Source of the DNA: Castanea sativa
Taxonomy: Eukaryota > Streptophyta > Magnoliopsida > Fagales > Fagaceae
Direction: 5' to 3'
Assembly: GCF_040712315.1 (NCBI RefSeq)
Contig: NC_134018.1
Coordinates: forward strand, 40,425,335 to 40,489,334
Length of the DNA: 64,000 nt
Part shown: positions 33,385 through 43,995 of the stretch, piece by piece
Position numbering within the stretch: position 1 is the stretch's first letter
How the letters are laid out: every line of letters begins with the position of its first letter
Program-made: the position numbers and the translations under genes
Notes under the pieces: model-generated
Seen by the model: only the letters and a program-made list of their open reading frames with translations
What the model was told of the DNA's origin: nothing
Databases searched by the model: none

Positions 33385-33635
33385 GGCGAAAATGACCAAA
33401 TACCACAATTTTGCAAAATTTATAGCAATTTAGCACTATTTCGGAACTAAATAGGAATCTACCACTTTTCAAGTATTCGAGTTTATGAAACTTGAGTTTC
33501 TAGAAGTTCTGCCACCGTGGCACAAGCTGAGCTAGCATTTGGATTAAAAAATGTAACTTGGTACTCAAGATTATTGGACTCGATTACTGTGTTAGATGTA
33601 CCCAAGTCCTCTAAACTCGAGTATGACTCAAGTTG
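33385..33635 (+). repeat. MULE left terminal inverted repeat
   Basis: It aligns over its length with the inverted 43735-43995 end, including TTTCGGAACTAAATAGG, ATCTACCACTTTT, GAGCTAGCATTTGG and CTTGGTACTC. Internal ACTCGAGT-like motifs recur. Confidence 0.85.
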
Positions 33636-35187
33636 CACGACACTAAAAACACAAAAGATTCAACTTTATTTGTCCCTTTCACTTCTCACTCTCACTTACC
33701 AAAACACTCTCACTCTCCTTCACACCCAAACATACAAACCCCAAACCCTCACTCCACCAAAGACAAGCGCATCTCGTTGGCGGCAGAAGACTCTCGTCGG
33801 CGACCTCTCACTCAGCTCTCTCACTGTCTCACTTTTCCTCTTCAAATTTGGAAGAAAGGTAAATGTAAGACTCAAAAGTACTTTTCCCTTTTCCTTTTCC
33901 TACAAACAAAGCTGGAATTGATGTGGTTGCTTGGAGTTTAAATTATCTATTTTTATTTTATATTTTTTAGGCATAGCTGAATTTGATTTTGATTTTGCCT
34001 TTTATTTTATTTTTGGGTGGAAAATGTAATTGGGCTATTGGAAAAGGGATGCTGTGAATAGAAGCAACCATATGCTGTTCATGAACTTGTCTTATCATTG
34101 TTCTGATTGTGTACAGGCCATTTTGATTTTATTATTTTTTTCTCTGGATGAAATGGATTCGATTTGCGGTGTGCAACACTTGGTTTTTGTTAAACATCTG
34201 CATACAATGATTTCAATCTATATCATTCATTATCTACAAGTGATTTTTTCTGTAGTTCAAAGAACAGTAATGCTGTCATGATCATGGGGCTTGCATTTTT
34301 GTAGCTTTAAATGAATGTCATATTGATCTAAACATTAAAACTTCAGTGAGAAGAGTAGTTGTTTTCTAATTTTAACAATATTGGAGGGGTCCTCTCTCAA
34401 TCACTTGAGCCCTAAAAAAATCTTAGAGCCTAGCCAATGTCTTTCTTAATGTTAAGTCTATCTCTCTGTACATACATGTAGGGGATTTAACATGATGCCT
34501 AACAAATCAAGAATTTGTAAAAAAAAAAAAATTAAAAAAAAAGGGATTGATTGAGATTTTCTTGATTGAAAGTTCATAACTTTCTAGTTAAATAATATAG
34601 AACTTTGTATCATGTTTAGATAGAAGCTGAGGTCTGGTTGCATGCTGATAAGTTTGTGTACGTTATTGATGATGATAACAAATATTATGGCATGCACAAC
34701 AACAACATATTATTTGCTCACCGTGTAGAAATTACTATAATAAGTGTTGTTTATTGCAATGAAAAATGTCCCAAAATGCTAATCTGAGGGTATCATAGAA
34801 ACTTTGTTTGTTTCTTAAAAGCGATTACAATTGTTTCTCAACAACAACAAAAAATTACAAGTCCCCATTTTTTTCTTCTATACAAATAAAAATTACACAT
34901 TGTTTTGAAATTCATTAGTGAGATGAACTTTCATTATTGTTTTAATCATTTCCAGTTGTGGATTTTAAGATTAAGTTGCTCACAAACAATTGGTGGGAAA
35001 AGATTGAAGCTTAGTATTTGGGACACAGGATTATTTTGAATTGTAATTCATATTAATCTTTGATTAGTGATACTTCTAGAAGTGATATTTTATGGTAACA
35101 TGTAATATTTTTCTTCACAACTTTGATGCATAAATAGATTTTTTGTACATTAGACAATCTCTGCAATAGAAATTGTTCATTACTTAT

Positions 35188-35260
35188 CTCTCTCTCTCTC
35201 TCTCTCTCTCTTTATATATATATATATATATATATATATATATATATATATATATATATT
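35188..35260. repeat. (CT)n(TA)n microsatellite
   Basis: About 12 CT units are followed by about 24 TA units inside the MULE. Confidence 0.95.
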
Positions 35261-36068
35261 AATAGGTAAAACTTAGAGAAAATCCAATTACATTCTATAA
35301 TTGACGTCCAATTTTGCACAATGTATCCTAAATTATTTATTTTAAAAGTGTTTTGTTTCCTAATTTTAGAGTCAAATGTGGAACCATATCAATAGAGACA
35401 AACTGCTATCACTGGACCAGTAGTAATTACTTTCTTATTTGGTACAGAATCAGAGAACACTCATTTCATGAAAAGAGAAAAACAATGATAAAAGAGAAAT
35501 AGTTTCTTGGTTCCAATCTTGTAGATGGGGGAGGGTACTTGGGTTTTCTCTAAATTGTATTTGTTTTATAGTGAAACTCTCTCTCTTTCTCTCTCTCCTA
35601 TTATTTTCTTTTCAAAATAAAGTGCATAGAATACATAGTGATTGATACATCCACTAACATTAAAAATTCTAAACTTTATTGATGCTGAAGTGAGTTTAGT
35701 TGTTCTTGTGGTTGATGGGATCCTTGTTGAACCAAACTAGTAGGGTTGGTTTTAATGGTGGTGGTGGGGTTGTGAAGGGGGTGTTCAATTATGTTTCATT
35801 ATTTGTTAAATTGGTAGTTGTGTGGTAGACTAGTTGAACTTGATTGCTTTGAATATCTCTTATATATATTGCGAATTAGGATTGATCAAGGGAGGTCAGC
35901 TATGCTTACACTGGCTTTGCTGATTTTGAGGGATTAATTGCTTGAGAAAAGAAAATATATTTGAATTCGTTCATTTTAATATCCAATGCAAGTGGCTTAG
36001 GAATGAGTAAATATTTTCTTTGCTTATGTGGCTATAAAATGTGTCCCCTTTCTTTGTGTGTGTGTGTG

Positions 36069-41455: not shown

Positions 41456-43438
41456 ATGCTAAGTTTGAACTGTGGCATCCTTCTAAATGCAACTTGAAAC
41501 AAAATGCATGATATATGCCATTAGATCAAAATGCATGCTACATGCCATTCAATTATGTATTTTTAAAACTTAAGAAAAATTGGATAAAATTTTAAGGACC
41601 AAATATGACATTTATACTATAAGCTACTTTCTCTTTCGGATGCATACAAAAAGTAAGGCACCCTCCTTAGCATGATCATCTTCAAGTACCCTACATGAAG
41701 GGTGTCAACTTTGACTTGGCCTCTGTTAACATGATCATCTTCAAGTACCCTACCATTCAAGAACATTGCTAATTAAAGGTGTCAAATTTTTATGCTCACA
41801 ACCAATTAGTCAATTTACTAATTCTATTATAGTGATTTCTTTGCTTGTGAAGGTTTAATGCCTGCCAGATTCAGTAATGATGATATTAAAAACCAGTTGC
41901 CTAGAATTTGATGTTGTGGTTGATGTCTTGCTGTGTAATCATTAATGTGTATTACTGAAATAGGTTATATATATATATATATATATATATATATATATAT
42001 ATATATATTTCAATATATGCTTAACCTGTTGTCTATAGTTTGATGTTGTGGTTGATGTTCTTGCTATTTAATGTGTATTACTGAAATAAGTTGAAGATTT
42101 ATTTTTTCAATACAAGCTGCCTAAAATAACTTGTGGGCTACATGAATTTATGTGCATGGATTTACACATTTTAGTTTATCCATCTTTTTAACTAGTATTT
42201 TTGGACTACTGATCCAGTAGTAGTTTAGCAGTGAGTGTTCTTTTCTCCAATTTAAAATTGGATTGTTTTATGTTCTATTTCATTTTTGTGTGCATGTGCG
42301 TGGATAAGGTGAACTTTTATAAATATAAATTCGAGCTTTGCTTGTGTTTTAACCAGGGATTTAGAAAGATCGAATCCTGAGAAGTGGGGTTTGCAAATGA
42401 AGAGGTTGTAACAGGAGAAAAACATTTTTTGAAGAATATTCATCAATGCAACCCAGCTCATAGTCATTACATGCAGAACCAAGATCATGTTTCAGTCCCA
42501 TTAACCGAACAGAAAAATAGTATTTTGACGTGAAAATTAATAGACAACCACTTGCTTCACTTGGACCTACAGAGGCATCAAAGACAAGGAAACATTTGAG
42601 TTTCAATTACGACTTTAGGTGAGAAATTGTGGAATATGGAACAAAAGACAGGCAATATGACTCTACTTATTGGTTGTGGTAACTATGACATATTATGTCT
42701 GTTTACAACCAGAAGTAAGCTGGTTATTTGTTTTACTCATGTAAATGGTGTTTGACTCTACTTATTTGTTGTGGTAATTATGGCAATTTTTGCTAAATGT
42801 AAATGGTGGCAACTATATACTAGATATTCTTGTTTTATTGATTTAATTTTTTGACAATTGAGCATAGGTGGAAATCTAACTTATAAGTATCAATTTTGAC
42901 CCAAAAAAATCTAATTTAAATCAAGATGATTCTATGAAATTGGATTATTGACCTTTTTGTCAAATTGAGCTACCTTAAGGAATCTCCTCATAAACACATA
43001 TGGGGTAGGCACAAACAACTTAAATTGTAATGTGTTCACCATAAATCTCTCCTATAAGCAAGGGAAATCATTAAATTTATTTTAATAGCAAAACTAAGGA
43101 AAGGAAACTAGTGGGAACCAATTAAGGATATTACCATATCAAGAACTTCTTCTCTTGTATAAGCCTTGTTTGATATCATAACAAGATCCTCCACAATAGG
43201 GTCAAAAACTTCCTTGTATTTGCAAGCTAATAGCATGGCTGTTAGCCCAACCAATTAAAGCTCCTTTCTGAGAACTGTTTGGTGCTCTAAGAACCTGTCT
43301 ATAAGGTTGACAGTGAGGAATAAGGTCTCGTCCATAAGCTCAAATTTGCAGTGAACTTGTTAGTACAACCAATTTCATTATTCAATTTCCAGTACAAATT
43401 TTCAGCGTCACTCAAATGTCCCTACAACTGCCTTAATA
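41456..43438 (+). other. MULE 3' non-coding region
   Basis: AT-rich, with a (TA)n tract at 41967-42008. A direct repeat of about 52 bp (GATGTTGTGGTTGATG ... TGTGTATTACTGAAATA) occurs at 41910 and 42042. No gene is recognised. The frames at 42252-42606 have no known motif. Confidence 0.6.
41967..42008. repeat. (TA)n microsatellite
   Basis: About 21 TA units in the MULE 3' region, between the two 52-bp direct repeats. Confidence 0.93.
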
Positions 43439-43790
43439 TGATTTTGCTTTGCACACAAGAACGGGGCCTCACATACAGATTGATACTCGAGTTTAATGGA
43501 CTCAGGTACTGCTAACACAGTACTCGAGTTTCGTGGACTCGAGTATCAATCTGTATGATTTTTCTTTGTACTCAAGAATAGGGCCTCACATACAGATTGA
43601 TACTCAAGTTTAATGGACTTAGGTACTGCTAACACAGTACTCAAGTTTTATGGACTCGAGTATCAATTTGTATGATTTTGCTTTGCACTCAAGAAATTGG
43701 GGTCTCACATACAGATTGATACTCGAGTTTAATGAACTCGGGTACCACACTAATACAGTACTCGAGTCCAAGAAACTGGAGTACCAAGTG
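43439..43790. repeat. Three ~117-bp subterminal tandem repeats of the MULE
   Basis: Units begin near 43439, 43556 and 43673. Each holds CTCACATACAGATTGATACTC, GAGTTTAATGRACT and AACACAGTACTC-type segments. The last unit runs into the right TIR. The recurring ACTCGAGT palindrome is shared with both TIRs. Confidence 0.88.
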
Positions 43791-43995
43791 GCATTTTTTA
43801 ATGCCCAAATGCTAGCTCAACCAGCACCACAATAGAATAGAAACTAGGAACTCGAGTTTGCTAAACTCAAGTACCATTTAGAACTCGAGTTTAGTAAACT
43901 CAAGTACGTAAAAAGTGGTAGATCCCTATTTAGTTCCGAAACAGTGCTAAATTACTACAAATTTTATGAAATGATGGTATTTGGCCATTTTCACC
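43735..43995 (-). repeat. MULE right terminal inverted repeat
   Basis: This is the inverted counterpart of 33385-33635. It ends with GGCCATTTTCACC before the duplicated CCTTGTTTCA. Confidence 0.87.

Follow-up and report, generated by a model that had tools for sequence, protein, structure and literature searches.

In Arabidopsis, jumping genes of the VANDAL group use the DNA-binding protein VANC to escape silencing (PMC5735166). PMD-MULEs, in which a plant mobile domain (PMD) is coupled to the transposase of a Mutator-like element (MULE), have been found in grasses and Amborella and described as fusion proteins (Ikeda 2017, PMC5418596). The element considered here, at positions 33385-43995 (10,611 bp) of a 64-kb stretch of Castanea sativa contig NC_134018.1 that was analysed as a whole (the window), likewise couples a PMD gene to a MULE transposase gene, MURA, inside one element, but as two genes with PMD upstream. 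The association of PMD genes with transposons, taken as new in a preliminary description of the locus, was thus already published. With VANDAL21 and VANC21 (Hosaka 2017, PMC5735166) the element has in common a transposase gene accompanied by a further gene, the two further proteins having the same predicted fold, and a short motif placed in non-coding tandem repeats. VANC21 contains DUF1985 and has the motif YAGTATTAY, whereas the chestnut protein belongs to the PMD family and has a candidate motif of the ACTCGAGT type, which it would bind with a putative anti-silencing effect. The domain is also shared with the host proteins MAIN, MAIL1 and MAIL3, whose genes are needed for silencing and lie outside mobile units (PMC7156037). 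Eudicots are stated to hold mainly genic PMD-C (Nicolau 2020, PMC7156037), yet the genome of chestnut, a eudicot, gave at least 150 PMD places, pieces included. Tea is likewise a eudicot with many PMD genes, which produce phased small interfering RNAs (phasiRNAs) and are treated as transposon-related, the accessible part of that description containing neither an element structure nor a transposase partner (PMC10673657). A 2021 review terms PMD proteins enigmatic and suggests an anti-silencing use by transposable elements, and a 2022 meeting report terms the VANC21 crystal structure unpublished.

The window element belongs to a two-gene Mutator-like family of the Fagaceae and is a defective copy that has been shortened internally. 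Its PMD gene is probably, at moderate confidence, a helper of the element and not a passenger, most likely a VANC-like one that would bind the end motif of its own family and relieve silencing for MURA. The support in hand consists of the unit itself, its recurrence, the fixed gene order, a ratio of nonsynonymous to synonymous substitution rates (dN/dS) near 0.5, the predicted VANC21 fold and the repeated motif. Within the literature searched, three findings are new: the PMD-first two-gene eudicot family, the convergent group that this genome also holds, and the match of fold to VANC21. No published statement of PMD-VANC homology was found in a search that left most subscription papers outside its coverage, and the same search found no paper accompanying 9lnj, the VANC21 structure used for comparison. 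A 2025 paper by Pelissier in Nature Plants reportedly names PMD protein-DNA motif modules in its title and may bear on the PMD-VANC link.

The ends of the element are marked by a target-site duplication, of which the two exact copies, CCTTGTTTCA, adjoin it at 33375..33384 and 43996..44005 and are the only exact occurrences in the window on either strand. In a chance control, 1 of 2000 random position pairs gave a perfect repeat of at least 9 (slack of 6 bases per end). The terminal inverted repeats (TIRs) at 33385..33498 (plus strand) and 43882..43995 (minus strand) are 114 nt long and 84% complementary, the longest inverted pair among those listed for 33000-44400, with similarity extending to 33624 on the left and to 43719 on the right (gapped alignment of 277 columns, 72%, E 3e-41). 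The perfect 10-bp duplication and the long TIRs of the preliminary description are thereby borne out, and so is its view of same-strand PMD then MURA as one mobile unit: all PMD and MURA domain matches lie on the plus strand within one set of ends, PMD 5′ and MURA 3′, an arrangement repeated elsewhere in the genome. MULE target duplications range from 9 to 11 bp in size. With 114-nt TIRs, a 10/10 duplication and further genomic copies, together with a transposase that has a PF10551 match (under the cut-off), a SWIM match and close relatives with the full domain set, the element is a MULE, and it shares with PMD-MULEs a PMD gene within the transposase's own ends, as do seven other TIR-bounded elements (some with partial genes). 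Pack-MULEs carry host gene fragments without a transposase of their own; the element is not one of these, a MURA gene being present, though broken. It had also been called complete, which is true of its ends; in content both genes are broken and the C-terminus of PMD is gone.

The PMD gene, on the plus strand throughout, comprises an exon 1 remnant at 36439..36531 (tblastn, residues 9-43 of P0001, 54% identity, E 0.001), exon 2 at 36660..37429, exon 3 at 37537..37624 and an exon 4 remnant at 37786..38077, the starts of exons 2 and 4 being approximate. PMD (PF10536) matches are found at 36696-37184 (E 6.1e-24), 37188-37442 (E 4.7e-16) and 37837-38037 (E 5.4e-5, below the curated cut-off), and the reading frame is interrupted by three in-frame stops, one in exon 2 (37185) and two in the exon 4 remnant (37834 and 38038). 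Beyond about residue 409 of the best relative P0001 (541 aa), there is no match 3′ of the exon 4 remnant; the longer relatives P0103 and P0104 continue into a basic tail, which the TIR-bounded C2 copy still encodes. The MURA gene (38514..41432, plus strand) opens with a long frame at 38514-39416 and is broken by in-frame stops at 39417, 40053, 40359, 40635, 40965 and 41397 and by two or more frame breaks, one near 39620 and another within about 40470-40630. The first part of its MULE transposase domain lies at 40056..40358 on the plus strand (PF10551, E 2.5e-5, 25.1 bits, under the cut-off of 27.6) and its SWIM zinc finger part at 40968..41396, same strand (PF04434, E 1.8e-8). The close relative P0121 carries PF03108, PF10551 and PF04434, and a profile search with the transposase P0130 against PDB sequences returned nothing up to E 0.1.

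In the window, 437 bp separate the PMD remnant from the MURA ATG, a spacing (given as about 440 bp) that had been read as a trace of a former spliced transcript or fusion protein. A deletion scar is the best reading of the gap, because the PMD C-terminus is lost here while longer relatives keep their tail; across the family, 8-15 kb separate the PMD exon from MURA in 28 of the 43 linked loci (range 1.3-24 kb), the window being the shortest, and the argument for fusion from spacing thus falls away. The letters of the proposed splice sites at about 38078 and 38506 are present, but the join of 38077 to 38507 is out of frame, giving AISKDR and then a stop, which rules out that splice. A single PMD-MURA protein could draw on a different join, from the end of PMD exon 2 (37429) to 38507, which keeps the frame and reads AIRSLMDFHFF; the Lithocarpus gene model P0132 has a join of this type (AIRSVMDSHFF). 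An in-frame fit is expected by chance for one phase in three, and the P0132-type join may as likely be a merge by the gene caller as a genuine transcript. Given also that fuller PMD genes (P0103, P0104 and the C2 copy) extend to the basic tail and that the two genes lie kilobases apart in those 28 loci, a spliced fusion protein is highly improbable.

Two TIR searches of the genome (716 Mb, 13 contigs), taking the best 40 of 557 and the best 40 of 893 candidates together with ends from fetched DNA, gave at least 82 distinct ends (merged), with 22 end pairs and 38 ends unpaired. The contents of the 22 TIR-bounded elements, judged from tblastn layouts with PMD and MURA, are among the matches listed as follows: eight contain both genes, whole or in part (the window, C3:14933889, C2:38335691, C6:36487012 or 36486026, C12:35402316, C7:22332766, C8:40794705 and C9:23635332), one PMD only (C5:18299832), one a MURA remnant only (C7:31623657) and 12 neither. 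Three of these 12 were read as DNA (C5:40497893, C10:6108868 and C4:30384896) and nine rest on the matches listed. In 8/8 of the two-gene elements PMD lies 5′ to MURA and both read in one direction, and flanking duplications of 10/10 (window), 9/10 (C3 and C6), 11/12 (C2), 10/11 with an offset (C12) and 8/10 (C8, by eye) accompany six of them. Copies with the same TIRs that lack PMD, which had been named beforehand as evidence against the unit, do exist; they also lack MURA or retain only a remnant of it. The 9.1-kb C5:40497893 gave no PMD or MURA match, and its long frames are Copia-like by eye. A PMD nested in a transposon of its own is ruled out, because its place and strand relative to MURA recur at other sites. 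A sister subfamily (C5:7053148, C6:10190596, C12:12968903, C4:27375212 and C6:6628594) has near-identical PMD exons with open frames, which would be a sign of recent spread.

Across the genome, searches with the window PMD exon gave at least 150 matches (best 150 of 1152 candidates scored, pieces included) and with the first MURA frame at least 136 (best 131 of 775 candidates scored), and 117 MURA loci (pieces merged) were compared with the 150 PMD places for linkage within 25 kb. At least 43 of 60 group A MURA loci (identity of 69% or more) are linked to a PMD, upstream and on the same strand in 43/43, as are at least 8 of 22 group B loci (35-53%), with the same arrangement in 8/8. In group C (34% or less), at least 12 of 35 loci are linked, with PMD downstream on the opposite strand in 12/12 and therefore convergent; one such pair is the MURA at C10:5674064 and the PMD at C10:5675355. 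Random relocation of the 60 group A loci on their own chromosomes (200 rounds, one chromosome length guessed) left a mean of 0.6 and a maximum of 3 linked.

This constancy bears on whether the PMD is a mere passenger, that is, a host gene captured by transduplication in the manner of Pack-MULEs and carried without use. Capture of host genes by MULEs is possible and is the explanation given for PMD-MULEs by Ikeda 2017 (PMC5418596), and the window copy has decayed, with PMD dN/dS of 0.50-0.99 among the four window-like copies. Against a passenger stand the position and strand fixed in 43/43 linked loci, the near-identical copies, spread over four chromosomes, whose PMD frames are open, the recurrence of the PMD-MULE pairing in further groups of MULEs and in other plants, and dN/dS near 0.5 between subfamilies, so that simple carriage appears quite unlikely. 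By the Nei-Gojobori method, the 36 pairs among nine copies of the PMD exon have a median dN/dS of about 0.49, with the ratio undefined in one pair; the four window-like copies compared with the five of the intact subfamily give 0.42-0.52, and within the intact subfamily, where dS is 0.05 or less, the ratios are noisy (0.29-1.20). The single MURA pair gives 0.54, and these values, which carry no significance test, fit a selection on PMD about equal in strength to that on the transposase during the family's mobile period.

The element ends are rich in a palindromic motif. Among 8-mers seen at least 25 times in the ends of nine elements, the eight commonest end-enriched ones are all ACTCGAGT variants, with a density in the outer 600 bp that is 33-89 times that of the interior; ACTCGAGT itself occurs 79 times in 10,800 bp of ends and 6 times in 56,573 bp of interior. 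These 8-mers are arranged as inverted pairs, and in the window additionally in a subterminal tandem array at 43437..43745 with ACTCGAGT-type palindromes (period 117 bp, 2.6 copies), a candidate binding array. The motifs are present also in copies without a coding match. Other Mutator elements have helper proteins acting in transposition, and the position of the arrays at the ends would suit a PMD that serves transposition itself, through end binding, excision or reinsertion, and has no part in silencing; a DNA-binding fold also fits such an end-binding accessory. The structural match is, however, to VANC21, which is published as causing loss of methylation and is a protein separate from the transposase VANA, and we regard a purely transpositional role as unlikely.

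That match comes from the predicted PMD fold, which agrees with the VANC21 fold in 9lnj, a structure of VANC21 on its target DNA, and no other chain stood out among the chains listed by VIA. DUF1985 matches 17 of 68 PMDs (best E 1.2e-3), with two scores of 19.4 and 17.1 bits under the curated cut-off of 35.1, and because the scores lie below that cut-off the PMD is described as VANC-like and not filed as VANC. In the chestnut genome DUF1985 has one match, sub-threshold. The link to VANC21 comes from structure and weak Pfam matches only: PMD profile searches against PDB sequences gave nothing meaningful, the best matches (E 0.39 and 0.075) being to unrelated proteins, and at a looser E of 10 one further family matched, in 2 of 33 PMDs scanned. 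Of the 68 PMDs, 23 match the domain of unknown function DUF7745 (best 3.1e-5), which may be a further member of a PMD/VANC superfamily.

From the fold, the arrays and the linkage, we infer DNA binding by the PMD of the window family, the motif bound and an anti-silencing effect. In this helper role, PMD from a coding copy would bind the ACTCGAGT-type arrays at non-coding ends of its own family and relieve host silencing there, so that MURA would be expressed and active and would then mobilise coding and non-coding copies alike. Several points weigh against this. A common fold is no proof of common function. The models were built for a relative from Quercus with 76-78% identity, in place of the broken protein of the window; Foldseek E-values exceed 0.001 with a TM-score by target length of 0.44, the two models (predicted local distance difference test, pLDDT, 59 and 65, the C-terminal half poor) have most of their alignment in common, and VIA re-aligns only chains ranked by Foldseek. 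Motif counts are not independent samples, because the TIR copies are related, and the arrays could instead be transposase sites or hairpins. In 17 of the 60 group A loci there is no PMD within 25 kb among the matches listed, the single 2-kb stretch read for the intact sister subfamily did not contain its 5′ TIR, and the dN/dS of 0.50-0.99 among window-like copies points the same way. Finally, host MAIN and MAIL1 are needed for silencing, which is the opposite sign. As a host mimic, PMD would instead compete for partners of the MAIN/MAIL1/PP7L silencing complex without binding a motif of its own element; PMD is a domain of MAIN and MAIL proteins, and anti-silencing use of transposon PMDs is suggested by Ikeda 2017 (PMC5418596) and the 2021 review. 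The match to the VANC21 fold, together with arrays particular to the element, indicates sequence-specific action, and competition of this kind, if a little less doubtful than the passenger or accessory roles, is still improbable.

Nineteen gene models from outside the Fagaceae with PMD and MULE-type domains were listed, and the MULE part comes first in 14/14 of those scanned (Vitis, Senna, Glycine, Aristolochia and Setaria); in the two Fagaceae models listed (P0132 and P0145) PMD comes first in 2/2. In a tree of 52 PMDs, the window falls within a Fagaceae clade of strong support. MAIL3-type rows are the partners of the MULE PMDs from Vitis (95/85); those from Fagaceae and Fabaceae share a different group with asterid rows (95/95), and those from Aristolochia and Setaria stand apart. 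As these lineages are placed separately, MULE-linked PMDs are not one clade in this tree, which drew a long-branch warning from the program and holds MAIL3-type rows but no PMD-A, PMD-B, MAIN, MAIL1 or MAIL2 anchors; a Glycine soja row labelled MAIL2 from its record name sits beside a MULE-fused row. It is conceivable, at a confidence just short of even, that PMD and VANC form one superfamily of transposon-borne motif-reading chromatin switches, with PMD independently acquired or reshuffled by MULEs of several plant lineages (as PMD-MURA, MURA-PMD and convergent), each with its own motif array, and with MAIN and MAIL1 as tamed or kindred host members.

Host PMDs are needed for silencing, yet transposons keep PMD genes, and the VANC21-like predicted fold suggests why, offering motif-specific DNA binding as a candidate biochemical role. 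The question of why transposons carry PMD becomes addressable by simple binding and methylation tests, for which chestnut is a source of near-identical open-frame PMD copies. Many proteins recorded in oaks and chestnuts as 'serine/threonine-protein phosphatase 7 long form homolog' closely resemble the element's PMD and, judged by this similarity, may be transposon genes.

Other mobile sequences lie elsewhere in the window. Remnants of Copia-type retrotransposons lie at 12853-16401, 20121-23392 and 25240-27685 (minus) and at 47421-48836 (plus), with RVT_2, rve and gag_2 in the scanned pieces, and a probable Gypsy-type remnant at 7056-8522 (minus) has an SH3_Tf2-1 domain in 7056-7601. To the right of the element, 44835-45446 (minus) encodes zf-RVT, a zinc-binding reverse transcriptase domain, and resembles a long interspersed nuclear element (LINE). 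Of the nine frames scanned, just one is a piece of a host-type gene: 29457-29801 (plus), with the MBF1 domain of a transcription coactivator.

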